41,715 nt of DNA from assembly GCA_017482205.1 (NCBI GenBank), contig JAFUNK010000011.1, positions 1-41,715 of the forward strand, given 5' to 3'. Position numbers and translations under genes: made by a program. This document shows positions 4,711-41,100 of this stretch, in pieces. Position 1 is the stretch's first letter. Every line of letters starts with the position of its first letter. Source of the stretch: Lachnospiraceae bacterium. GTDB taxonomy: Bacteria > Bacillota > Clostridia > Lachnospirales > Lachnospiraceae. The notes under the pieces are model-generated. The model saw only the letters and a list, made by a program, of their open reading frames with translations, did no database searches and was not told the origin of the DNA.

Positions 4711-4765
4711 AACAGAAGCTCCCACACCTCTCAACGATGTGTCCAATGGGAGCACTTTTTATTTT
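4711..4765 (+). ncRNA. Short hairpin RNA with terminator directly upstream of the Abi_2 gene
   Basis: Between the promoter and the Abi ribosome site lies one compact hairpin. The outer stem GCTCCCA/TGGGAGC is 4718-4724 with 4747-4753, and the inner CAC/GTG is 4725-4727 with 4739-4741, with an 11-nt loop and a CCAA bulge. CACTTTTTATTTT follows, an intrinsic-terminator U tract. Transcription from near 4711 would give an RNA of about 50 nt, and readthrough would give the Abi mRNA. From memory, a conserved 'abiF' RNA motif has been described upstream of genes of this family; whether this hairpin fits that model needs a covariance search. An attenuator is the alternative. Confidence 0.55.
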
Positions 4766-4777
4766 ACAGGAGAAAAA

Positions 4778-5641
4778 ATGGAACTAAAGAAACCTACAAC
4801 CTTCGAAGAACAAGTTACTTTACTGGAACGAAAAAACATCATAATCAAGGACAAAGACGCTTGTATAAATTTTTTGTCAAAGACAAATTATTACCGCATC
4901 ACTGGTTATTACCTGCCCTTTATTCGGAAAGAAGAAAAAAAATGCTTTATTGCATTAGAATTTCAACGAATCCAGAACATATATGCCTTTGATGTTGAAT
5001 TAAGAAATTTAATTTCCTTTGCAATTGAAAAAATTGAGGTATATGTCAGGACGCAGCTGGCTTATCATCATGCCCACACTTATGGAGCAGAGGGCTATAT
5101 GCAATCATCCTCTTTTAATGAACGCCACAATCATACTACCTACTTAAAACATATCAACACATGCATTTCAGAAAATTCAAATACGCTTGTCGTAAAACAC
5201 CACAAAAAGATTTATGACGGTCACTTCCCTATTTGGGCAATTATAGACTTCTTTTCTGTGGGAATGCTGTCCTATTTTTACCGTGGAATAAAGAATCCCG
5301 ACAAAGCAAAAATTGCAGAAAATGTATATGGTGTAAACTATCAAATCCTAGAAAGTTGGTTACGTTGTCTTACCGACCTTCGAAATCGATGTGCTCATTA
5401 CTCCAGATTATACTATTGGATTTTTCCTGCTATACCTAAAATGCCCTCTAAGGAAAACTATATTCCAACAAGGCGATTATTCGCCCAATTATATATGCTC
5501 AAACTTATGTATCCAAATAAGGAAGACTGGAATAATGAATTCTTAAAGCCACTGATAAAGTTAACAAAAAAATATAAAAATGACATATCCTTAAAGCATT
5601 TAGATTTTCCATATCGTTGGAAATCATTGTTAAAATACTAA
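4778..5641 (+). CDS. Abi_2 (AbiD/AbiF-like) abortive infection protein
   Basis: A 287-residue Abi_2-family protein. The family includes lactococcal AbiD/AbiF, which stop phage growth, and carries a HEPN-type RNase fold. Seen: the N-terminal KKPTTFEEQVTLLERKNII segment typical of the family, the YYRITGYYLPF motif, the FDVELRNLI...AIEKIEVYVRT helix, and the HEPN active-site motif RNRCAH (R-X4-H) at about residue 213 in a LRNRCAHYSRLY context. Start: ATG at 4778 with AGGAG 5 nt upstream, rather than the frame opening at 4739, whose sequence is the leader hairpin. It sits in the small direct-repeat-flanked island with no other phage genes. The upstream hairpin RNA may act as its antitoxin or attenuator (inference). 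Confidence 0.9.
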   Translation: MELKKPTTFEEQVTLLERKNIIIKDKDACINFLSKTNYYRITGYYLPFIRKEEKKCFIALEFQRIQNIYAFDVELRNLISFAIEKIEVYVRTQLAYHHAHTYGAEGYMQSSSFNERHNHTTYLKHINTCISENSNTLVVKHHKKIYDGHFPIWAIIDFFSVGMLSYFYRGIKNPDKAKIAENVYGVNYQILESWLRCLTDLRNRCAHYSRLYYWIFPAIPKMPSKENYIPTRRLFAQLYMLKLMYPNKEDWNNEFLKPLIKLTKKYKNDISLKHLDFPYRWKSLLKY

Positions 5642-5645
5642 AAAA

Positions 5646-5669
5646 TTGCTCTGGCACCAACCGGAGCAA
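5646..5669 (-). terminator. Hairpin at the 3' end of the Abi gene
   Basis: TTGCTCTGG (5646-5654), loop CACCAA, CCGGAGCAA (5661-5669), one G-U pair. Read on the minus strand the stem is followed by TTTTTT, so the U tract would stop transcripts entering the Abi gene in antisense. On the plus strand there is no U run. Confidence 0.6.
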
Positions 5670-5782
5670 CAAGCGATATGCCACTAAGATACAATCACCC
5701 TAAGCAAGCACATTGTATCACCTTTCCCGATATATCACAAACACAAATGCAGTTTACAGCTACGTTCATGTAACCTTTATCA

Positions 5783-5816
5783 CATACCCTCCCTTCTGCA
5801 TACAATAAAAAAAGGC
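5783..5816 (+). repeat. Right copy of the direct repeat flanking the Zn-ribbon/Abi island
   Basis: Matches 3517-3549, with 22 identical bases (5795-5816) plus a left extension. It lies immediately upstream of the GH18 gene's ribosome site and includes TACAAT (5801-5806), a possible -10 box for that gene. Confidence 0.85.
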
Positions 5817-5833
5817 TTTCTAAAGGGAATGTC

Positions 5834-6994
5834 ATGCTTATTTACACCGTAAAAGCCGGAGATACCGTAGACACCATCGCTACCTCCTACAATATCTCCG
5901 CCTCTTCTATTATTTACAACAATCAATTACCCTGGCCGTACCGCCTGACCATCGGACAGTCCTTGCTGCTTTCTACGGATTCAGCTTCAGCAGCCAAACG
6001 TAGTTTTTATACCGGGGGCTATGCCTATCCATTTATCAGCGAGTGGGTACTTAACGAAACACTCCCCTATCTGTCCTACCTCTACATCTTTTCCTATGGT
6101 TTTACCACCGAAGGAGAACTGCTTCCGCCCCTTTTAGACGATACCTTTATGATTACTGCTGCAAAAAACCATGGTACTTCCCCTATTTTGACTCTGACCC
6201 CCTTTGGCCCAGACGGACAATTTAACAACTATCTGATTTCCCAGATTGTGAACAACCTGGACGCACGCCGCGTTTTAAAAGACAATCTTGCCGAAGAGAT
6301 TATAAACCGTGGCTTTGAAGGTGTGGACATTGACTTTGAATTTATTCTTGCCTCCGACAGGGATGCTTTTGTAGACTTTGTTGCCTATATGCAGCAAAGC
6401 CTCTCTCCGTTAGGGGCCACGGTTTCTGTTGCTCTTGCTCCCAAAACCTCCGATACACAGGTGGGACTTTTGTATGAGGGCAAAGATTATGCGAGGCTTG
6501 GGGCTGTGGCTGATTATGTGTTGCTGATGACGTATGAGTGGGGATATACCTACGGTCCACCTTTACCTGTGGCCCCCTTAAACAAAGTCCGTGAAGTGGT
6601 CGAATATGCCCTGACCGTTATCCCCGCCGATAAAATACATCTCGGTATTCCCAACTACGGCTACGACTGGACGCTCCCCTATATCAGAGGGCAGTCCCAA
6701 GCGGTCACGTTGGGTAATGTGGAAGCTACCCAGTTAGCCATTTCCTATGGCGTTCCCATCCAATATGACGATGTGGCTCTTTCCCCCTTCTTCCGCTACA
6801 ATACTGACACAAACGGTGTTACCGCAGAACATGAAGTCTGGTTTGAAGATGCCCGCAGCATCAACGAAAAACTCGCCCTTGCAGAAGAATACAATCTCCG
6901 CGGTTTTAGCTGCTGGCAAATTATGGAACTGTTCCGACCTTTATGGCTCCTGTCCGCAGACAGATTCTCTATCAACAAAACTCCCTTCATCTAA
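5834..6994 (+). CDS. LysM-GH18 spore-cortex type glycoside hydrolase
   Basis: A 386-residue protein. Residues 2-47 are one LysM peptidoglycan-binding repeat (YTVKAGDTVDTIA...YRLTIGQSLLL), and about 55-380 are a GH18 barrel. The catalytic DxxDxDxE-type motif is GVDIDFE, with D165, D167 and the general acid E169; downstream YGYDWTLP and GFSCWQIM also fit the fold. There is no signal peptide, as in SleL/YaaH-type cortical-fragment N-acetylglucosaminidases that act on spore peptidoglycan. Those usually have two LysM repeats; this one has one. The start has AAGGG 7 nt upstream. The gene stands alone and its stop abuts the palindromic element at 6997. Confidence 0.88.
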   Translation: MLIYTVKAGDTVDTIATSYNISASSIIYNNQLPWPYRLTIGQSLLLSTDSASAAKRSFYTGGYAYPFISEWVLNETLPYLSYLYIFSYGFTTEGELLPPLLDDTFMITAAKNHGTSPILTLTPFGPDGQFNNYLISQIVNNLDARRVLKDNLAEEIINRGFEGVDIDFEFILASDRDAFVDFVAYMQQSLSPLGATVSVALAPKTSDTQVGLLYEGKDYARLGAVADYVLLMTYEWGYTYGPPLPVAPLNKVREVVEYALTVIPADKIHLGIPNYGYDWTLPYIRGQSQAVTLGNVEATQLAISYGVPIQYDDVALSPFFRYNTDTNGVTAEHEVWFEDARSINEKLALAEEYNLRGFSCWQIMELFRPLWLLSADRFSINKTPFI

Positions 6995-23836: not shown

Positions 23837-25654
23837 TCACTTTAAAATTTTCTCAAGCATACTTACTCTGTTGAACGGAAATGAGAAATAGTACCCGTCC
23901 ACAAAATCTTCTGTCAGTGCCATCATTTCTTTTGCCAAATCAATACCCGCCTGTTCCCCTTCTTCGCGGGTCATATCTTCACGGTAACGTGCCAATACTT
24001 CTTCGGTTACGTCAATACCGGTCATCTCATTTTTCATAAAAGTGGCATTCTTTAAACTGACAAAGGGCATGATACCACATAAAATACGTGCTCCCGTTTC
24101 CTCTTTGATTTGTCTTAACCGCTCTGCTCCTGCCTTTGTTGAAACCGGCTGGGTTAAGAAAAAGGCAGCACCTGCCTCCATTTTCTTTTTAACACGTCCA
24201 ATCTCCACATCCAGATTTCTGCGCCCCTGATTGATGGCTCCGCCGAAGCATACCGGTGCCTGCGCAAACTGTTCCTCATTCATATCATTCATAATCCGCA
24301 TCAGTCCCACTGAGTCGAAATTAAATACGCTCTTTACGCTGGCTCTTGCCATGGTAGGTATTGGGTCACCCGTAATCACCAAAAAGTTACGTATCTGATT
24401 GATATGTGCACCCAATAGCTGGGAACGCATGGCAATGGCATTTTTGTCACGACAACAGATATGGGGCATGACACACATACCGGTTTCTCTCGCCACCTTT
24501 TCTGCCATAAGAATGGAATCCGCTCTGGTTCTGCCGGAAGGCGAATCCGGAAATGTCAATACATCCACTCCTGCTTTTAACAACAGATGTGCCGCATCCA
24601 TCAGCTTTTCGTCATCACTTCCCAAAGGCGGTGCCAGTTCCACTGCAATCAGCTTCTTACCTGTTTTTCCTGCAAAAAAGGCACTATCCTGCTTTGATAT
24701 TGTCTCTTTTGCATCAACAGCCTCCAAACTTTCCTTTTGGGGTTGCGTAAGGGATACCTTTTCACACATCTTTTTTATGTATGCCGGTGTTGTACCGCAG
24801 CAACCTCCTACGATATCCACACCGTCCGCCGCAATGTCGCTGATTTTATCTGCAAAATACTCTATATTGCCGTTATCAAAAATCATACGATTCTTAATAA
24901 TCTGAGGATACCCCGCATTGGGCAGTGCCGTCAATATCTTTTTCCCCGAAAAACGTATACTTCTGATAATCTGCTGCATATGTCCGGGACCCACGCCGCA
25001 GTTAAAGCCCACTGCATCGACCCCTGTTATTTTTTCGGCACGCTCTGCCAATTTACGGGCACTTAATCCCAAATGGCTGTAACCAAACTGGTTCACCGAA
25101 AACTGTACCATCACAAAAGCCTTATCCCCGATAAAATCTATGGCCTCTCTGATATCGTCTATATCGGAAAAGGTTTCGAATACAAAAACTTTTGCACCCT
25201 CTTCCAAAAATGTACGGCAGATTTCCACATATTCTTTTACTATACTTTCCCTATCCGTCTGACTGTCATAGGGAATCTGTCCGATATCGGCAGCAATGTA
25301 TATGGGGTGAGCCTGTGATACTTGATTATCGGATTCTGCCACTCCCTGTGTCGCCTCACCTGTCCCGGCAGCCTGTGCCTTTTTCACAGCCTCGACTGCC
25401 AGCCGATACCCTGCACGGATATTTTCCTGTACTTCTGCCCAAGGCTTATCCATGGAAAATGAATTACACGCAAAGGTATTGGTACGGATAATCTGTGCTC
25501 CTGCCTCTATATATTCTGTATGAATCTTAAGCACACGCTCAGGATGCATAAGATTTGCCAGCTCCGGCAGTTCCTTTGTATCATAAAGCTGTGCGTAGTA
25601 GGTGCCGAAAGCACCATCCGCTATAATTTTATGTTTTTGTAAATATTGCTTCAT
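23837..25654 (-). CDS. Bifunctional homocysteine S-methyltransferase / 5,10-methylenetetrahydrofolate reductase
   Basis: About 605 residues. The N-terminal half (about 1-300) is the homocysteine-binding barrel: IADGAFGTYY start and zinc-ligand cysteines in GFNCGVGP and GGCCGTTP. The C-terminal half (about 330-605) is a MetF-like reductase: KLIAVELAPP, RNFLVITGDP, FDSVGLMRIM and AAFFLTQPV. This YitJ-type fusion makes 5-methyl-THF and uses it, or another methyl donor, to remethylate homocysteine to methionine. Start: ATG 25654, 10 nt after AAGGGAGA, rather than the GTG at 25678, which precedes that ribosome site. No S-box riboswitch fits the 51 bp upstream. Confidence 0.92.
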   Translation of the reverse strand: MKQYLQKHKIIADGAFGTYYAQLYDTKELPELANLMHPERVLKIHTEYIEAGAQIIRTNTFACNSFSMDKPWAEVQENIRAGYRLAVEAVKKAQAAGTGEATQGVAESDNQVSQAHPIYIAADIGQIPYDSQTDRESIVKEYVEICRTFLEEGAKVFVFETFSDIDDIREAIDFIGDKAFVMVQFSVNQFGYSHLGLSARKLAERAEKITGVDAVGFNCGVGPGHMQQIIRSIRFSGKKILTALPNAGYPQIIKNRMIFDNGNIEYFADKISDIAADGVDIVGGCCGTTPAYIKKMCEKVSLTQPQKESLEAVDAKETISKQDSAFFAGKTGKKLIAVELAPPLGSDDEKLMDAAHLLLKAGVDVLTFPDSPSGRTRADSILMAEKVARETGMCVMPHICCRDKNAIAMRSQLLGAHINQIRNFLVITGDPIPTMARASVKSVFNFDSVGLMRIMNDMNEEQFAQAPVCFGGAINQGRRNLDVEIGRVKKKMEAGAAFFLTQPVSTKAGAERLRQIKEETGARILCGIMPFVSLKNATFMKNEMTGIDVTEEVLARYREDMTREEGEQAGIDLAKEMMALTEDFVDGYYFSFPFNRVSMLEKILK

Positions 25655-25705
25655 TCTGAAAAAATCTCCCTTATACACTTCTCCACCGGATAACTGTCAC
25701 AAATT

Positions 25706-27733
25706 TTATCCCCGCAGCCTTCTGTATTTTTCTTCTGCATGCTGTTTAAGCACCGGTTCACCGAATATCTCTATCAGACCGCCAATATTGTTATTGTCAC
25801 CCCAATACCGTTCTTCACTTTTGAGGTATCTGAATACATATTTCATTACATCTTTTGCAAACAAACCTATACTGCCTTCCTCCAGGAAAAAAGAATTGCA
25901 ATACAGAGAAATAATATTAGCTCCAAAAGTTTCCGGAATCTGCTCATATTCATCGCTATTTTTCTTTACTATCCTGCATACTCCGCTATCATCCCTTTTC
26001 ATAAAGATGATGTTCTGCTTCGGAATATCAGAAAGCAGTAACGGAGAATGGGTTGACAGAATAATAGATACCTTTTTATCTGCATAATAAGTATTCACAA
26101 ACCGGTACAATCCTCGTATGTATTCCTGTTGTAAGGAAGGGTGTAAATTCACATCCGGTTCATCTAATAACAATACCACATTATCATATCTGTTTAACTC
26201 TTCTTTCGCCGCATATAATCTGGCATAAAAATTCAAAACAGCAGCCTCTCCTGCACTCATTTTCCACTGAAAATTAAGGAATTCAAATTCAAAGGGAAGC
26301 CCTGCGATGTATTCTGTATACATATCATACAAAGCCGCTGCCTCTGCAAAGCCAAGCTCTTTCTGCTTTGCCCTTTCATTCCTTTCAAACATACGCTTAA
26401 CCCTGCCCCAAAAACACTCTGTCTGCTCTATTGCAGTATGATATCCGCTGTAACCATGTAGATATCCTTCCATTATATTTAAATACTCTTCCTTCTCCAT
26501 CTGTTTTTCAATATAATACAAAACAGACTCTGCCATATATGCATAATACTCTTCATGGCTTTTCTTTTCTTCCAGTGCCCCATTGTTAAAATACTGGGAA
26601 CGTCCATTATGATAATATTGTCTTTCCAGATGCTCGTATATTCGCCGCAGTTTCCTGTCATCAGGCTGGTATGTCATCAACTTTTCACAGTCTGATGCAG
26701 TAATGCTTTCATCTTCCAGCATTTTTGACAGATTTTCATAAAGTATAGCATGAATCAGTCTGCCCACTATTTCATACCGGATGGTCCTGTTTTCCTCATA
26801 ATCCTGATTTACATACCCCCATTCTTCATCTTCACCGATTTTATACCTCGTCAGGGCACATAAATCATATACGATTCCACATCGCAGAATGTGGGAATAA
26901 AGGTCTTGATACCGTACATTACTCAAAGCTGATACAAACCAGATATAAATATCCTGTTCCCTGTCTGCATTACTTCTTCTGGTTTTTCGTATTTTCTCCT
27001 CTATTCCTTTCAGATTTGCTATGGACATAGTCATAACCCGACTGTTATTGTTCCTTATCTGCTCAATAAATGTCTCTAAAAAAGTAAGGGGCATTTTTTC
27101 TTTTGCACCGGCTTCCCAAATAAATCTCATCTGACGTTTCATTTCTTCGCCCCAGAAAATATCCCGCCTTTTGCTTCCCATAAGTCCCATGGTAGAAATA
27201 TCAAATTTGGTGTTCAACGACTCTATTTCATTGGCAAAGATACTGGAATAATACAAAAAGGCAACCTGTTTCAAACCGTTTATCCGCCTATCAACGTCTA
27301 CCAACTTCTCTCTTCCGTCCGCCCGGTCAATAAACCTGATTTTCTTTTGAAAATTGTACTTGCTGAGATAAATAAATTTAAGGCCCTCTTTTTCGTCCTC
27401 GTACACCGCCAACACTGCACCATACCGTTCGTTAAAGTCATCCATATTGGCACGCTCGTTCAAATCGTGTAACAGCTTTAATACTGTAGTTTTTCCCACT
27501 CCGTTATTGCCTGCCATTGCTGTGGTGTACAAAATATTAGGCTGTTCACACTCTAAGGAATTACAAATAGTTTTTGCAATTCTGTTTTCTGCAAAATTCT
27601 TCAGTATAAGAGTTCCTACAATATCCGGCTCTTCGTTTTTTTCTTCAAAGGCAAACTCATACTGTGTGTCTAAATTGATTCCTTCCCTGCTTAACACTCC
27701 ATTATCTCTTGCCCAAACATATAATAAACGCAT
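25706..27733 (-). CDS. SMC/ABC-like AAA ATPase, PtuA-like, partner of HNH nuclease
   Basis: About 675 residues. The N-terminal Walker A is GNNGVGKTT (near 76-84). A long helical, charged insertion (about 100-480) follows, with few recognisable motifs. Then come an ABC-type signature SAGE (about 494), Walker B VVLLLDEPDVNLHP (Asp near 525) and the STHSP switch (about 561-565), the layout of AAA_21/AAA_15 OLD-like ATPases such as Septu PtuA. There is no TOPRIM domain; the C-terminus is short. The ribosome site AGGGG overlaps the stop of the HNH gene 8 bp upstream, so translation is coupled. I infer that it senses invading DNA or its replication and gates the nuclease. Confidence 0.85.
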   Translation of the reverse strand: MRLLYVWARDNGVLSREGINLDTQYEFAFEEKNEEPDIVGTLILKNFAENRIAKTICNSLECEQPNILYTTAMAGNNGVGKTTVLKLLHDLNERANMDDFNERYGAVLAVYEDEKEGLKFIYLSKYNFQKKIRFIDRADGREKLVDVDRRINGLKQVAFLYYSSIFANEIESLNTKFDISTMGLMGSKRRDIFWGEEMKRQMRFIWEAGAKEKMPLTFLETFIEQIRNNNSRVMTMSIANLKGIEEKIRKTRRSNADREQDIYIWFVSALSNVRYQDLYSHILRCGIVYDLCALTRYKIGEDEEWGYVNQDYEENRTIRYEIVGRLIHAILYENLSKMLEDESITASDCEKLMTYQPDDRKLRRIYEHLERQYYHNGRSQYFNNGALEEKKSHEEYYAYMAESVLYYIEKQMEKEEYLNIMEGYLHGYSGYHTAIEQTECFWGRVKRMFERNERAKQKELGFAEAAALYDMYTEYIAGLPFEFEFLNFQWKMSAGEAAVLNFYARLYAAKEELNRYDNVVLLLDEPDVNLHPSLQQEYIRGLYRFVNTYYADKKVSIILSTHSPLLLSDIPKQNIIFMKRDDSGVCRIVKKNSDEYEQIPETFGANIISLYCNSFFLEEGSIGLFAKDVMKYVFRYLKSEERYWGDNNNIGGLIEIFGEPVLKQHAEEKYRRLRG

Positions 27734-27744
27734 CACTTTTTCCC

Positions 27745-28968
27745 CTAACGGAACACATATCCTCCGCCGCTCTTTCTTTCAATAATTTTTAAGTCTTCCA
27801 TAATATCTCTTTCCAGTTTGGAAAAGGGCTGATTTACCAAATCATCATCTTCTACAATTTTACCAAAAATCTGCTCCTCTATCTGTATGGCACTTACTTC
27901 CCCCTCAATACCCTCAATGGTTTTCTTCCACTCCTTGATATACCATTTATTATTTTCAATAATTTTTTCTATTTTATCATAACGTGCAGTGTAAAATGCC
28001 GCTATTTTCATCCCCACCAGATTTTGAGCTATCGGTGGATTTTTCCGGCGGCTATTTACCCACTTCTCTAACCTACTCTTAGAATATGGTATACCATCAA
28101 TTGCAAATTGTAATTCAAAGTCACAATCCGAACTGATATAGTCTTCATCAATATCCAGCTTAAATTTAAAAGAATCTAATTTATATTTTTCATCATAGGG
28201 GGATTGATATTTCTTTGGACTATCCAGCTTAATTTTATTACAGTTACTACAGGACGGCACTAAATTGTACAGGCACAGTGCCAAATGCGGATGCAGTGCC
28301 TTGGCAAATAAATGGTCTAATTGGGCAACTACCGTATCATCCCTATTGTCAATATACTGCCCATTACAATAAGGACAACCTTTCACCCCCTGCATCCCTA
28401 AAATAAGGTTATTTATTTTTAACTTTCCCTTACTATTCAAATATTTCTTTATTTTCGTATATGATATCGTGCAGCTTTTCCAAGAGCCTTCCTCCTGCAG
28501 ATTTACTCCTTTAACCAATGCATCATACAAATAGTCTGCCATTAATTTCTTCAAAAAAGCCACTTCTTTTTCCCAATAAACCGGATCTGCTTTCTTTCTG
28601 TTCTTCAAAAAAGCCCTAAGCTTTTCAATCTCTTCATACGGCAAACATACGAATTTTTCCAGATAAAGAATATTTTTATCTTTCACGGAACCAAACGTTT
28701 TATTAGTTACATCATTTATGTTGTCCAGTTCCTTTATGCCTGTATTTTTAAAAATCTCTCTGAGCAATCTCCCTACCCTGCTTGCATTTACCACAAGGGA
28801 AGCCTTTTCCTTGACCTCCTCTTTAGCATCAGTAGTTTTACTGCTCTTTTTGTCTTTTGGAGCAGGTGCATATATTTCTCTGAATGTCTTCTCTAAATTA
28901 TCCAGTTTGATTTTTAAACAAACTGCATATGCCTCTTCCAAGTCCTTGTTTTTCTTAAGTAATAACAT
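27745..28968 (-). CDS. HNH endonuclease with long N-terminal region, PtuB-like
   Basis: About 407 residues from ATG 28968 (AGGGG 7 nt upstream; the TTG at 28992 precedes it). The N-terminal 190 residues are helical and highly charged, with no domain I can name. The HNH core is CPYC (about 198-201), QLDHLFAK (Asp218-His219), CLYNLVPSCSNCNKIK (second Cys pair near 240 and 243, plus the Asn). This gives a zinc-stabilised beta-beta-alpha-metal nuclease. A C-terminal region of about 150 residues follows. It is first in a two-gene unit with the AAA ATPase. Classical Septu PtuB is much shorter and encoded after PtuA, so this is a variant or a different system. There is no strong promoter in the 57 bp upstream. 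Confidence 0.85.
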   Translation of the reverse strand: MLLLKKNKDLEEAYAVCLKIKLDNLEKTFREIYAPAPKDKKSSKTTDAKEEVKEKASLVVNASRVGRLLREIFKNTGIKELDNINDVTNKTFGSVKDKNILYLEKFVCLPYEEIEKLRAFLKNRKKADPVYWEKEVAFLKKLMADYLYDALVKGVNLQEEGSWKSCTISYTKIKKYLNSKGKLKINNLILGMQGVKGCPYCNGQYIDNRDDTVVAQLDHLFAKALHPHLALCLYNLVPSCSNCNKIKLDSPKKYQSPYDEKYKLDSFKFKLDIDEDYISSDCDFELQFAIDGIPYSKSRLEKWVNSRRKNPPIAQNLVGMKIAAFYTARYDKIEKIIENNKWYIKEWKKTIEGIEGEVSAIQIEEQIFGKIVEDDDLVNQPFSKLERDIMEDLKIIERKSGGGYVFR

Positions 28969-29025
28969 GTCTTTTCCCCTATTTATTTTCAAAATTGATA
29001 TATCTTCTTTACGATACTACTTTTC

Positions 29026-29751
29026 TCAAACTGACCATGGTAAAAACGCAAAAATCACCGCTATCACTATCGCCGGCAACAAATTCGCCACCCGGATTTT
29101 TTTGCCCCATACCAGATTGATTCCTACACAGAATATCAAAATGGAACCTACCAGTGACAAATTATCCAGTGCCGCGTCCGTCATAATGGGCTTGATAAAC
29201 CTTGCAAGGCAGGTAATTAAGCCTTGAAAACACGCTACGGGAATGGCTGAAAATACACAGCCTTTTCCCAAGGAACTGGTCATTACCAGAATAATAATAA
29301 AGTCCAAAACCGCTTTGGTCGCCAGTATGGAATAGTCTCCAAAAATACCGTCCTGAATAGAGCCTACTATTGCCATGGCACCGATACAAACCGTAAGAGA
29401 CGCCGTCACAAACCCGTCCACAAAATTCTTCTCTTTGGAGTTGCCGGTTTTTACTTTCAGCCATTCTCCAAACCGTTCCATTTTATCTTCTAAATTCAGC
29501 AGTTCACCCAAAAAAGCACCCATAGCAAAGGATATTACAATCAGCATGGAACTGCCACTCACTATGGCATTGTCACTGATACTGAGCATCCCTTCCAATG
29601 CACCTGCCATTCCGATAAACAATACAGATATTCCGCATGCCTTACTCAAAGTATCCTGATACCGCTCTGCCAAAAATCTGCCGAACAATTTACCAAACAG
29701 ACCGCCCGCTATAATTCCTGCTACATTTATAATTGTTCCAAGTCCAGCCAT
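29026..29751 (-). CDS. DUF554 membrane protein
   Basis: 241 residues with about seven hydrophobic segments and the DUF554 (YdfK-like) pattern: GTIINVAGIIAGGLFGKLFG at the start, ISVLFIGMAGALEG, MGAFLGELLNLEDKMERFG, FVTASLTVCIGAMAIVGSIQDG and KAVLDFIIILVMTSSLGKG. It is a predicted transporter or channel of unknown substrate. The start has GAGGTAACGA upstream. The HNH-ATPase pair begins only 57 bp downstream. Confidence 0.9.
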   Translation of the reverse strand: MAGLGTIINVAGIIAGGLFGKLFGRFLAERYQDTLSKACGISVLFIGMAGALEGMLSISDNAIVSGSSMLIVISFAMGAFLGELLNLEDKMERFGEWLKVKTGNSKEKNFVDGFVTASLTVCIGAMAIVGSIQDGIFGDYSILATKAVLDFIIILVMTSSLGKGCVFSAIPVACFQGLITCLARFIKPIMTDAALDNLSLVGSILIFCVGINLVWGKKIRVANLLPAIVIAVIFAFLPWSV

Positions 29752-29815
29752 TCGTTACCTCGTTGTCAAAATCTGACACTTTTATCCTTTATCGTAAATC
29801 CTTATCTTATCATAC

Positions 29816-29866
29816 AAAAAAACTTACCAACTTTCAATTTTTATCATTGAAAATCAGTAAGTTTTT
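29816..29866 (-). terminator. Intrinsic terminator of glutamine synthetase
   Basis: On the minus strand a long stem (10 bp, 29857-29866 with 29818-29827, then 7 bp TTTCAAT/ATTGAAA after an internal mismatch, with a 7-nt loop) is followed by TTTTTTT (complement of 29816-29822), about 50 bp past the glnA stop. Confidence 0.85.
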
Positions 29867-29916
29867 ATTGTTTATTTTAAAAAAAGTTTTTCTTTACAAG
29901 CTAAAGCGCAATCAGA

Positions 29917-31341
29917 TTATAAATTGAAATATTTGTCAAATTCTGCGGGGTGCGGAATCTTGGACATTTCCATGCATTCTTTTCTCTTAAGAGCAATAAA
30001 GTTCTTTATCAGATGCTCGGGGAATACGCCGCCTGCGGTCAGATACTCATGGTCTGCTTCCAGTGCATCCAATGCATCCTCCAGACGGGTAGGCAGGGAG
30101 GTTAACTTTGCCTTTTCTTCATCTGACAAATGATACAGGTTTACATCGTAAGGTCCCCAACCGTTTTCATGAGGGTCAATCTGGTTTTTAACACCGTCCA
30201 GACCTGCCATTAACAGTGCTGCATAACAAAGGTAAGGATTACAGGTCGCATCAGGGTTACGGATTTCAAAACGTCTCAAATTGGGAGTCTTTGCATATGC
30301 AGGAATACGGATAACCGCACTACGGTTGGAGGTCGCATAGCCTACCGTTACAGGTGCTTCAAAACCGGGCACCAGACGCTTGAAGGAATTGGTGCTGGGA
30401 TTGGTAAGTGCACACAGGGACGCAATATGCTTTAAAAGACCGCCCATAAAATAGTGTGCCGTTTTACTCAGGTGGGAATAGCCTTCATCATCAGAGAATA
30501 CCGGTTCTCCATCCTTTAACAGCAACATATGTACATGCATACCGTTTCCTGCTTCGCCGTAAACAGGCTTAGGCATAAAGGTAGCTACTTTGTCATATTT
30601 TAATGCAGTATTGCGAACCACATATTTAATCATCATGGACGCATCTGCCATCTTGGACATCTGCCCCAGCATAGGCTCGATTTCAAACTGTCCTGCAGCC
30701 CCTACTTCAGGGTGATGATACTTAATCTGTATGCCCATCTTTTCTAACTCAAGACACATTTCGGAACGGCACTCATAGGTCTGGTCAAAAGGCTTTGCCA
30801 CGTGATAATTCTTCTGATGTGCCACTATACAGCCCTGCCCCTGCAATTCACTGTTCCAGTAAGCCTGTTCGGCATCCACGGAAACACCGATGGCATTAGG
30901 CTGTACTGCCCAACCTACCTGGTCAAACAGATGAAATTCAAACTCCGGTAAAATCAACATGGTATCTGCAATACCACTGTCCTTCATATACTGCTCCGCA
31001 GCCAGTACAATATTTCTGGGATACTGATCTAAGGGCCGATTTTCGGGATAGTCGATTACCATTGCATTACCGGTAATGGATAAGGTCTTAACCTCACAAT
31101 ACGGATCAATAATTGCCGTATCCAAATCCGGAATGAAAACCATATCGCTCTTCTCAACTACTGCATATCCGTAGTTAGAAGCGTCAAAGCCGATACCATT
31201 TTTCATGGTATCCTGTGTAAACTGTGATGCCGGAATGGTTACATGACGGAACTGACCGTTGATGTCAACAATTTTAAAGTCAACCATCTTAATGTCCTGT
31301 TCCTGAATGAGTTTCATAATGTCTTCTGCGTTTCTTGCCAT
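29917..31341 (-). CDS. glnA: Glutamine synthetase, type I
   Basis: 474 residues, close to the usual length of GSI. It makes glutamine from glutamate, ammonia and ATP. Seen: the beta-grasp N-terminus (FKIVDINGQFRHVTIP), LPEFEFHLFD metal-ligand strand, HHEVG-like YHHPEVGAAGQFEIE, NGMHVHMLL, the loop NPSTNSFKRLVPGFEAP, and RIPAYAKTPNLRRFEIRNPDATCNPYL. The C-terminal NLYHLSDEE sits where the adenylylated Tyr occurs in enteric GS, but that alone does not prove adenylylation. It is monocistronic, with its own promoter (31388-31416) and terminator, and the ribosome site is AGGAGG. Confidence 0.96.
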   Translation of the reverse strand: MARNAEDIMKLIQEQDIKMVDFKIVDINGQFRHVTIPASQFTQDTMKNGIGFDASNYGYAVVEKSDMVFIPDLDTAIIDPYCEVKTLSITGNAMVIDYPENRPLDQYPRNIVLAAEQYMKDSGIADTMLILPEFEFHLFDQVGWAVQPNAIGVSVDAEQAYWNSELQGQGCIVAHQKNYHVAKPFDQTYECRSEMCLELEKMGIQIKYHHPEVGAAGQFEIEPMLGQMSKMADASMMIKYVVRNTALKYDKVATFMPKPVYGEAGNGMHVHMLLLKDGEPVFSDDEGYSHLSKTAHYFMGGLLKHIASLCALTNPSTNSFKRLVPGFEAPVTVGYATSNRSAVIRIPAYAKTPNLRRFEIRNPDATCNPYLCYAALLMAGLDGVKNQIDPHENGWGPYDVNLYHLSDEEKAKLTSLPTRLEDALDALEADHEYLTAGGVFPEHLIKNFIALKRKECMEMSKIPHPAEFDKYFNL

Positions 31342-39097: not shown

Positions 39098-39847
39098 TCA
39101 CCTCAATTCTACGCTAAATTTTCCTCTGCTCCACAACCACATGGGTGTATGAACATCTATTGGCACCAACTCCGTTCCCTTTAAAACCTCCTGCCAGCGC
39201 TTTGCTACAATTTCCTGCACATTACCTTGTACTGCCTCTTCTGCAGAAATGATACCTAACCTCTCACTTGCCTGAATCACATGAGTATCCGGAGCCACCG
39301 TTATATTCTCTCTGTCAACAAATTTCACATCTGTATATTGTTCCATCACATATAACCAATAGTTGCAAATTTTATTGCCACCCAGATACGGAAACTTCTT
39401 TTTATTTTTTGATATGTACTCTTTTATTTGACAAACAGAATAACTATTTTCACTAAATAACCTGCGAATATCTCCCGCAAAATCTTTTTCTATGGTTTGA
39501 CATAAAGTTCTCCATATGATTGGCTGCTTGTTGGACTGCAAAGCAACTTTATACTTTAATAATTTTTCTCTTAATTCCTGTTCAGCCATATTGACTACTG
39601 CTTTTGTTTCAAAAACATCTGCGGTATCCGCATCTTTATATGTCTTGTTCGCACATTCCCATAGCATATAAGAATTCCTTTGATAATTAAGTGCCATAGG
39701 TAATGTGAAATATAAATAATTTTCCTTTGCCGATTTGTCTAACGCCGGTTTTTCATCTTCTGGCATTTTTTCACCGCCAAGACTGCCGGATTTGTATGCC
39801 TCTAATAGGGCATAGACTTTATTTATATCAAATGTTTCCAATCTCAT
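39098..39847 (-). CDS. HhH-GPD/DNA-glycosylase-like protein, function unknown
   Basis: About 249 residues, soluble. The C-terminal part reads like the helix-hairpin-helix region of DNA glycosylases: FPYLGGNKICNYWLYVM as hairpin-helix, then VAPDTHVIQASERLGI, which matches the VDTHVxRxxxRLG motif carrying the catalytic Asp. I see no catalytic Lys in the hairpin, so it would be monofunctional or not a glycosylase at all. The N-terminal half (YLYFTLPMALNYQRNSYMLWECA) is unfamiliar. ATG 39847 overlaps the upstream stop (ATGA), giving tight coupling with the HAM1-HD gene. Assignment to the superfamily is tentative. Confidence 0.6.
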   Translation of the reverse strand: MRLETFDINKVYALLEAYKSGSLGGEKMPEDEKPALDKSAKENYLYFTLPMALNYQRNSYMLWECANKTYKDADTADVFETKAVVNMAEQELREKLLKYKVALQSNKQPIIWRTLCQTIEKDFAGDIRRLFSENSYSVCQIKEYISKNKKKFPYLGGNKICNYWLYVMEQYTDVKFVDRENITVAPDTHVIQASERLGIISAEEAVQGNVQEIVAKRWQEVLKGTELVPIDVHTPMWLWSRGKFSVELR

Positions 39848-41100
39848 CTTTCCCCTTCCCACTCTGCTACAAATTCTTCAAGATACGCCTCCATAACGAC
39901 ATGTCTATGCTCAGCCATTTTTCTTGCGGTCTCCGTATTCATCATTTCTTTCAGCAGCAACAGTTTTTCATAAAAGTGATTGATACTGGTAGAATTTTGA
40001 TTTTGACGATACGCCTCTTTATTCATATTAAGCAGCGGTCTTATATCCGGGTCATAGATTTTTCTTCCCTTCCTTGTGCCATATGCAAACGTTCTTGCGA
40101 TGCCAATTGCTCCCATTGCATCCAGTCTGTCCGCATCCTGTACGCATTTCCCTTCAATCGTACCGGGCACAACCGAATCCTTCCCTGCAAAAGAAACCGC
40201 ATCTATAATGCTACACACAGAAGCTATGATTTTATCCTCCAAGCCATTGCTTCTCATAAAATCAACTGCATTTTTCTTAGTCTTATGTGTTTGGGGCGAA
40301 AGCTTAATATCATCTACATCGTGTAATAATGCAGCCAACTGTACTATCAGCATATCCGCATTTTCTTTTTCCGCAATCTGCATAGCCAACCGATAGACCC
40401 TCATGGTATGATGATAGTCATGTCCACTGCAGTCATCCGCAAATATTTGTTTTACATATTTTCTGGCATTTTCTATTACCAATTTAAAATTTAAAACTTT
40501 CTCAAAGAACTGCAAAACCCCGTCTTCCACCGCAAACTGTTCCAATTCCTCAGCCGACAAATCGTAATAGTACCTATTGGTTTTTATATCTATCGACATA
40601 CTATCCAACGGAAATCCTTTTTTTCTGATTGCACTATGGGGCTTATCTGTTAAAATAAACTTTTCACTAGCCATAGACAAATCCATGGATTCGAAAATAT
40701 TCTTTTCATCCATTACAAAACAAATCGCATTTCTATACCGTGCAATAAGATTGCCATACTGCCTTGCAAGCCCTGTGTAGTATGCCAGCATTTCTTCATC
40801 TGATAAACATTTTCCATTCACATTGCGTACATGGACTCCCGGCTGGATTTCGTCCGGCACATTATCAAAATATAATCCTGAATCACAGGAAAAAACAGGT
40901 ATCTGAAAGGCTTCATAATATGCTAATGCTTTTAACCTTGCATTTTCAAGCGGTGTATTACCATTTTCTAAAACTTCCGGAATACACTTTCCTTCTGCCT
41001 TCAAATCACTTAATCCAATCAATTCTATTCCCAGTTTCTCAAGCCTGCTTTTCATTACAGATAATTTTGCCTGATTGCCTGTTCCAAATAATAATTTCAT
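39844..41100 (-). CDS. HAM1/RdgB-like nucleotide pyrophosphatase fused to an HD hydrolase
   Basis: 418 residues with two enzyme domains. Residues 1-200 resemble non-canonical purine NTP pyrophosphatases: GTGNQAK (GNxxK), ENARLKA, and CDSGLYFDNVPDEIQPGVH (DSGL), then KGFPLDSMSI, where GFGYDPIF is usual. Residues 225-410 are a YedJ-type HD domain: GHDYHHTMRV, LLHDVDDIK and QDADRLDAMGAIGIARTF. The fusion suggests hydrolysis of a modified nucleotide in two steps. The gene is first in an operon with the HhH-like gene (4-nt overlap), then the response regulator. Promoter at 41121-41150; ribosome site AGGTGATG. Confidence 0.85.
   Translation of the reverse strand: MKLLFGTGNQAKLSVMKSRLEKLGIELIGLSDLKAEGKCIPEVLENGNTPLENARLKALAYYEAFQIPVFSCDSGLYFDNVPDEIQPGVHVRNVNGKCLSDEEMLAYYTGLARQYGNLIARYRNAICFVMDEKNIFESMDLSMASEKFILTDKPHSAIRKKGFPLDSMSIDIKTNRYYYDLSAEELEQFAVEDGVLQFFEKVLNFKLVIENARKYVKQIFADDCSGHDYHHTMRVYRLAMQIAEKENADMLIVQLAALLHDVDDIKLSPQTHKTKKNAVDFMRSNGLEDKIIASVCSIIDAVSFAGKDSVVPGTIEGKCVQDADRLDAMGAIGIARTFAYGTRKGRKIYDPDIRPLLNMNKEAYRQNQNSTSINHFYEKLLLLKEMMNTETARKMAEHRHVVMEAYLEEFVAEWEGER

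Follow-up and report, generated by a model that had tools for sequence, protein, structure and literature searches.

A Septu-like HNH nuclease and ATPase gene pair of the candidate defense family PDC-M62, in the rarer HNH-first order, in a Lachnospiraceae bacterium

The HNH and ATPase genes

Contig JAFUNK010000011.1 (GenBank assembly GCA_017482205.1) of a Lachnospiraceae bacterium carries on its minus strand two adjacent genes that encode an HNH protein and an ATPase. The window analyzed here is this whole contig (41,715 nucleotides (nt)), and the source assembly is 2.16 Mb in size and 73.7% complete. The pair probably forms an anti-phage module of PDC-M62, a Septu-like candidate family in PADLOC, with its two genes in the rarer HNH-first order and the HNH nuclease presumably gated by the ATPase. 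Its parts are given below with the evidence for each (ORF, open reading frame).

27745..28968, minus strand: HNH nuclease gene, PDC-M62B family, PtuB-like, first of the pair (ORF, PADLOC, alignment, AlphaFold2 model)
25706..27736, minus strand: ABC/OLD-type ATPase gene, PDC-M62A family, PtuA-like, second of the pair (ORF, Pfam, PADLOC, family profile)
28390..28968, minus strand: N-terminal part of the HNH protein, residues 1-193 (AlphaFold2: mostly helical, mixed confidence)
28213..28377, minus strand: HNH core, residues 198-252 (CPYC ... DH ... YNLVPSCSNCNKIK) (alignments A1 and A3, model)

Both ORFs are intact, the first encoding 407 amino acids (aa) from an ATG at 28968 (415 aa from an alternative TTG at 28992) and the second 676 aa from a GTG at 27736, and a gap of 8 nt separates the ATPase start from the HNH stop. 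An initial annotation, made from the letters of the sequence, had described a minus-strand pair with HNH and ATPase motifs, a description confirmed by the ORFs and by conservation across the family. The HNH protein contains CPYC at residues 198-201, DH at 218-219, and CSNC at 240-243; the ATPase contains GNNGVGKTT at 76-84, SAGE at 494-497, and DEPD at 525-528, as well as STHSP. Conservation was assessed in alignments that took in 70 of 77 listed HNH loci (A3) and 66 of 76 ATPase loci (A4), near-duplicate, short, and very long rows having been dropped. Residues C198, C201, D218, H219, N235, C240, C243, and N244 are invariant in 71 aligned HNH proteins; in 67 aligned ATPases, S494, E526, H532, and G624 never vary, and conservation is at least 90% at G76, N78, G79, G81, K82, G496, E497, and D525. 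By this conservation the motif matches exceed chance.

The HNH protein was modeled with AlphaFold2 on 71 sequences (mean predicted local distance difference test score (pLDDT) 81.5, predicted template modeling score 0.81). Helices are predicted across residues 8-153, with pLDDT values of 53-90 in ten-residue blocks. The predicted core comprises a strand at 216-219 (with D218-H219), a strand at 236-239, and a helix at 241-247, the layout of a ββα-metal core, and is followed by strands and then by a helical C-terminus, predicted with high confidence.

The nuclease had been described as enlarged by an N-terminus of about 190 residues, which proved accurate: 197 of its 407 residues precede CPYC, compared with a family median of 122.5 (range 87-257), and one of 70 is as long or longer. 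Large size is normal in PDC-M62B, and in a second set of sequences four relatives have HNH ORFs of 424-512 aa (upper bounds, counted from the first possible start). The ATPase had been credited with a helical insertion of nearly 400 residues. The distance from the Walker A lysine to the signature is indeed long (412 residues versus a median of 349 and a range of 199-518; equaled or exceeded in 6 of 66), but the size of the insertion was overstated, because in ABC-type ATPases the gap between Walker A and signature contains part of the ATPase fold.

Family assignment

Hidden Markov model searches, including PADLOC, had been proposed as a check on the initial annotation, and their top matches for the two proteins are the two PDC-M62 models. 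The best defense model for the ATPase is PADLOC PDC-M62A (4.4e-66), followed by PtuA (2.5e-18), and that for the HNH protein is PADLOC PDC-M62B (1.2e-30), followed by PDC-M01B (5.1e-12) and PtuB1 (2.5e-6). The ATPase also matches Pfam AAA_21 (2.5e-15) and AAA_15, and scores 41.8 against a curated cut-off of 500 for Ec78 PtuA, which is thus not reached. Among solved chains, the profile of the 67-member ATPase family matches retron Ec78 PtuA (3.4e-25), retron Ec83 PtuA (6.7e-25), PtuA 8ee4 (1.4e-21), and AriA (5.1e-21), with OLD and SMC chains below these and Rad50 matched too; used as a single query, the window ATPase matches only the Ec83 ATPase (1.9e-4) and PtuA 8ee4 (3.5e-4). The profile of the 71-member HNH family matches 9n69_F, a TIGR02646 protein, at 0.0011, and no other match of this profile to solved chains up to E 1 is convincing. 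Chain A of 9n69 is an AAA ATPase, which the family ATPase profile matches at 9e-23.

The PADLOC, Pfam, NCBIfam, and family-profile matches together place the pair, at the level of sequence, in the PDC-M62 branch of PtuAB-like systems and, by the curated cut-offs, outside canonical Septu. The earlier description of a Septu-like HNH protein with a PtuA-like ATPase is thus borne out by the PADLOC matches and by the family ATPase profile. The further suggestion of a new Septu subtype or a distinct system finds no support, as the pair fits the catalogued PDC-M62, large proteins are standard there, and the HNH-first order occurs in other members. The kind is already catalogued, and the window holds a divergent member of it with the rarer gene order.

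The resemblance to PDC-M62 lies in the best model for both proteins, in similar lengths (407 aa versus 328-401 aa for the M62B models and 676 aa versus 597-746 aa for the M62A models), and in the adjacency of the genes; the differences are the leading position of the HNH gene and an HNH N-terminus among the longest. PDC-M01, the second-best family for the HNH protein, is far weaker than PDC-M62 for both proteins. Septu (PtuA 8ee4, Septu EcB88) shares with the window an ABC-type ATPase beside an HNH nuclease, two genes without a reverse transcriptase (RT), and a histidine-asparagine spacing of 16 residues (H219-N235 here, H75/N91 in EcB88 PtuB), but the window HNH protein is about twice as long and has a helical N-terminal part, the ATPase is longer, the order is reversed, and the curated PtuB and TIGR02646 cut-offs are missed. 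In the excerpts available of PMC8565338, type I and RT-bearing type II Septu are described and PDC is not named. The PtuAB effectors of type I-A retrons (Ec78/Eco7 and Ec83/Eco4) comprise the same enzyme pair and include the closest solved ATPases by family profile; unlike them, the window locus has neither an RT nor msr-msd. In Gabija and OLD systems (GajA, OLD) the ATPase is fused to a Toprim nuclease, whereas the window has a separate HNH protein, and a Pfam search at E<=10 gave no Toprim match.

Gene order among relatives

An alignment-based scan yielded 80 named loci, the best 80 of 483 HNH relatives and thus a sample skewed to window-like loci, in which no two HNH proteins share more than 89.7% identity. 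An ATPase gene lies adjacent on the same strand in 78 of these loci, the other two being at contig ends. The ATPase gene comes first in 74 and the HNH gene in four (L070, Lachnospiraceae; L080, Enterocloster; L108, Streptococcus oralis; L134, S. cristatus; all Bacillota), while the order in L120 and L123 is cut off by contig ends. In the relatives' genomes, all 22 distinct determinable places are ATPase-first, one of them identical to a named locus. The distinct determinable relatives therefore divide into 95 of 99 ATPase-first and 4 of 99 HNH-first, a tally without L021, L058, L059, and L172 (at contig ends), L047 (the same place as L057), and L022 (identical to L140). In manually inspected plasmid records whose two matches are adjacent, the ATPase gene leads in 14 of 14 cases, several being similar enterobacterial plasmids; they come from 18 records, of which a Segatella copri record (matches far apart) and three others were left out. 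The reversed order reported for the window is thus real and uncommon. All four HNH-first pairs have PDC-M62A and PDC-M62B as best matches, which indicates that the order ATPase-then-HNH is not required for PDC-M62. No further gene common to the four HNH-first loci was seen when their ORF lists were read by eye.

Some of the HNH-first ATPases have features of their own. That of the Enterocloster locus (L080:8649-10478) has degenerate motifs in the alignment, with GEDGAEKT as Walker A and TNSP as THSP, and is possibly inactive. Those of the two streptococcal loci (L108:4903-6666 and L134:914-2611) match the AbiLi model (1.5e-15 and 4.3e-19), which may point to a connection of PDC-M62 with AbiL.

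Flanking genes and distribution

The genes on either side of the pair lie outside the system.

29026..29751, minus strand: DUF554 membrane protein, flanking (Pfam DUF554, 1.9e-74)
23837..25678, minus strand: homocysteine S-methyltransferase/MTHFR, flanking (NCBIfam PRK08645 model, 8.7e-173)

These neighbors had been named correctly in the initial annotation. DUF554 lies 57 nt upstream of the pair and the methyltransferase/MTHFR gene 27 nt downstream, all on the same strand. A pattern scan of 25400-30000 found a terminator-like site after GlnA (29865-29819) and, on this strand, none between DUF554, the pair, and MTHFR; in the same region, promoter-like sites (16 versus 13.9 in shuffles) and terminator-like sites (2 versus 2.9) show no excess. 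Transcription from DUF554 may read through into the pair. The GC content of the two genes (0.355 and 0.385) is below that of the four surrounding genes (0.410-0.450), but this is weak evidence of recent transfer, since genes elsewhere in the window are equally low (0.375-0.390) and the codon usage of the pair is ordinary (relative codon adaptation index 0.742 and 0.723). Elsewhere in the window are an AbiD/Abi_2 abortive-infection gene (4739..5641, plus strand; PADLOC AbiD 5.3e-93, Pfam Abi_2 1.1e-46, GC 0.336) and a single ORF that fuses a Ham1-like domain and an HD domain (39844..41100, minus strand).

The occurrence of the pair among relatives is patchy. In 36 same-genus genomes the ATPase has no close homolog, the best match being 5.2e-9 with 37% identity over residues 492-639, so that, for this sample, the pair is not a core operon present in all relatives, which would have refuted the initial annotation. 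PDLC04735 is found at E<=1e-25 in 7 of 299 family genomes, with the source genome counted. The HNH protein is matched at E<=0.001 in 6 of 81 same-genus genomes including the source, the next best match being 2.1e-12, and distant same-genus HNH relatives stand beside an ATPase gene in ATPase-first order (L048, L056, and L057). From these counts, the pair is a sporadic accessory unit in a genus that has distant HNH relatives of it and not this pair. Single-sequence scans of genome and viral contigs with the window proteins found no relatives. A canonical PtuB scan was negative in 250 of 250 family genomes, a result without bearing on absence because the control was also silent.

The surroundings of the pair vary as well. 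Up to 1.5 kb on each side of DUF554 (less at contig ends) was searched at 14 other loci of the genus, and none of the 14 yielded a match to MTHFR, GlnA, peptidase, HNH, or ATPase; the MTHFR gene was found at E<=1e-40 in one of 10 relatives searched. No conserved empty site that would bear on the insertion between housekeeping genes suggested in the initial annotation was found, the flanks being non-syntenic in the relatives examined. At one relative's locus (L025:4731-10014), the ATPase gene, the HNH gene, and a further 343-aa ORF (5213..6244) lie between two 263-bp direct repeats that are 86% identical. The second repeat copy is the start of a gene that is presumably UvrB-like, and an ORF 93% identical to the further ORF stands beside the HNH gene in L059. 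The arrangement in L025 looks like the site-directed insertion of a three-gene unit.

Weighing the assignment

Several observations weigh against reading the pair as a PtuAB-like defense module. The HNH protein stays under the cut-off for Pfam HNH and under the curated cut-offs for TIGR02646 (23.7 against 52.15) and Ec78 PtuB NF041761 (17.2 against 150), and among the Septu PtuA entries its family profile finds no PtuB chain at E<=1; because of these results, the transfer of the PtuAB mechanism is a distant one. A literature search that took in few subscription papers and preprints returned no phage test of PDC-M62 by name. The pair's own neighbors are metabolic, and the AbiD gene lies about 20 kb away. 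On the side of defense are the presence of that AbiD gene in the window, the insertion-like arrangement in L025, the lack of a close ATPase homolog in the 36 same-genus genomes, and the neighborhoods of the relatives. There, 110 of 270 flanking ORFs from 61 loci, chosen at random and none longer than 900 aa, were compared with 88 control ORFs that flank matches to DUF554, MTHFR, and peptidase in other genomes. The 110 neighbor proteins matched 225 PADLOC models at E<=1e-15 and the 88 controls matched 1 (by 2 proteins), figures that count models and not proteins matched, include many overlapping type I restriction models, and are set against a control that was not species-matched. The matches are led by type I restriction-modification, with at most five proteins per model. 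Owing to the overlap among models, the manner of counting, and the control, the enrichment in defense genes around the relatives is suggestive.

That the pair is a canonical type I Septu (PtuA-PtuB) with inverted gene order is doubtful. Both PtuA and PtuB models are matched, and the labels themselves overlap: in a survey of the Bacillus cereus group (PMC11811056), the one paper found to name PDC-M62, 203 of the calls for that family proved to be duplicates of Septu calls and gave way to Septu. However, the PDC-M62 models score far higher for both proteins; the PtuB models (195-250 aa) and PtuA models (289-545 aa) describe smaller proteins than M62B and M62A; the curated PtuB and TIGR02646 cut-offs are missed; and a short PtuB of about 200-250 aa would be expected after PtuA, not a 407-aa HNH protein before the ATPase. 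A type I-A (Ec78-like) retron effector pair whose RT was lost or separated is extremely improbable. Although the closest solved ATPases by profile belong to retrons Ec78 and Ec83, the flanking gaps of 57 and 27 nt leave no room for an adjacent msr-msd, no Rfam match reaches the gathering score within the window, the Pfam search detected no RT among the 17 window proteins, and the retron-type curated models fall below cut-off. It is also very unlikely that the genes form a housekeeping nucleic-acid repair pair, an SMC/Rad50-like ATPase with a nuclease, that shares an operon with the flanking DUF554 and MTHFR genes. The common strand, the short gaps on both sides, the lack of terminator-like sites on that strand, and the matches of the ATPase profile to SMC and Rad50 would fit such an operon, but the pair is sporadic (the 7 of 299 family genomes above), its flanks are not conserved, both proteins match defense-candidate models best, and the samples searched largely show the near-complete absence among relatives that would refute such a core function.

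It is unlikely that the HNH-first pairs form a subfamily apart, under control logic of their own, whose nuclease is produced before the ATPase and bears an enlarged helical sensor domain. The window and its four HNH-first relatives are all from Bacillota, and the window's branch is long (1.5 changes per column) and without close kin, the top identity in the joined alignment being 26%. The best tree of joined HNH and ATPase columns, which covers 45 of 87 pairs, requires 3 changes of order for the five HNH-first rows, and 0% of 200 bootstrap trees unite these rows. Constraining them together lowers the log-likelihood by 29.3, and a single origin is not rejected by the approximately unbiased (AU) test (p 0.138 for the 45 rows, 0.143 without L080). 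For the HNH tree of 87 rows, the constrained joined arrangement scored better (AU p 0.584). The first tree of those 87 rows, with 4 order changes, was under-searched, since the constrained arrangement outscored it, and its count of origins was discarded. Against a separate subfamily, ATPase-first L159 and L170 find their closest named counterparts, at 37% identity, in the HNH-first loci L070 and L080, and N-terminal length does not follow gene order, being large in ATPase-first L075 (190 residues), L142 (190), and L096 (181) and small in HNH-first L080 (117). The reading suggested by the sequences is that the HNH-first order arose by repeated swaps, and a single lineage is possible. It is likewise unlikely that the window and the four HNH-first loci make up one lineage of PDC-M62 within Bacillota, with the nuclease made first and its enlarged helical N-terminus serving as a separate sensor or brake, so that the order would be the mark of a functional subtype and not a chance swap. 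The assignment to PDC-M62 as a family whose gene order varies remains preferred.

Proposed mechanism

For the window pair as a PDC-M62 module, the best-supported mechanism is ATPase-gated HNH cleavage, with tRNA or DNA as the candidate substrate. This proposal draws on the PtuAB literature and on the spacing of H219 and N235, equal to that of H75 and N91 and involving two invariant residues. According to PMC13096335, mutation of H75/N91 in Septu EcB88 PtuB abolishes defense, PtuA Walker mutants do likewise, and the system cleaves tRNA-Tyr. According to PMC11555353, PtuAB of retron Eco7 causes loss of tRNA-Tyr, Eco4 likely does not target tRNA, and nicked DNA is cited as the target of the Septu of E. 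coli ATCC 25922. A review (PMC12948488) gives a 6:2 PtuA:PtuB complex and states that in Ec83 PtuAB is set free when msDNA is lost. The corresponding catalytic set is present in the window, with H219 and N235 in the HNH protein and K82, D525, and E526 in the ATPase.

By analogy with published PtuAB work, the ATPase (M62A) would bind the HNH protein (M62B) in a complex and keep the nuclease inactive as long as the cell is not infected. Infection by a phage would alter the state of the ATPase and license the zinc-supported HNH site (H219, N235), which may then cut nucleic acid, either tRNA or DNA. The infected cell would be halted or the phage genome destroyed, the abortive outcome being the one suggested by the published PtuAB systems.

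Significance

The pair adds a divergent clostridial member to the catalogued candidate defense family PDC-M62. Gene order varies in PtuAB-like pairs, and order alone should therefore not define subtypes. Phage testing would show whether the larger PDC-M62 branch shares the tRNA cutting reported for some PtuAB pairs.

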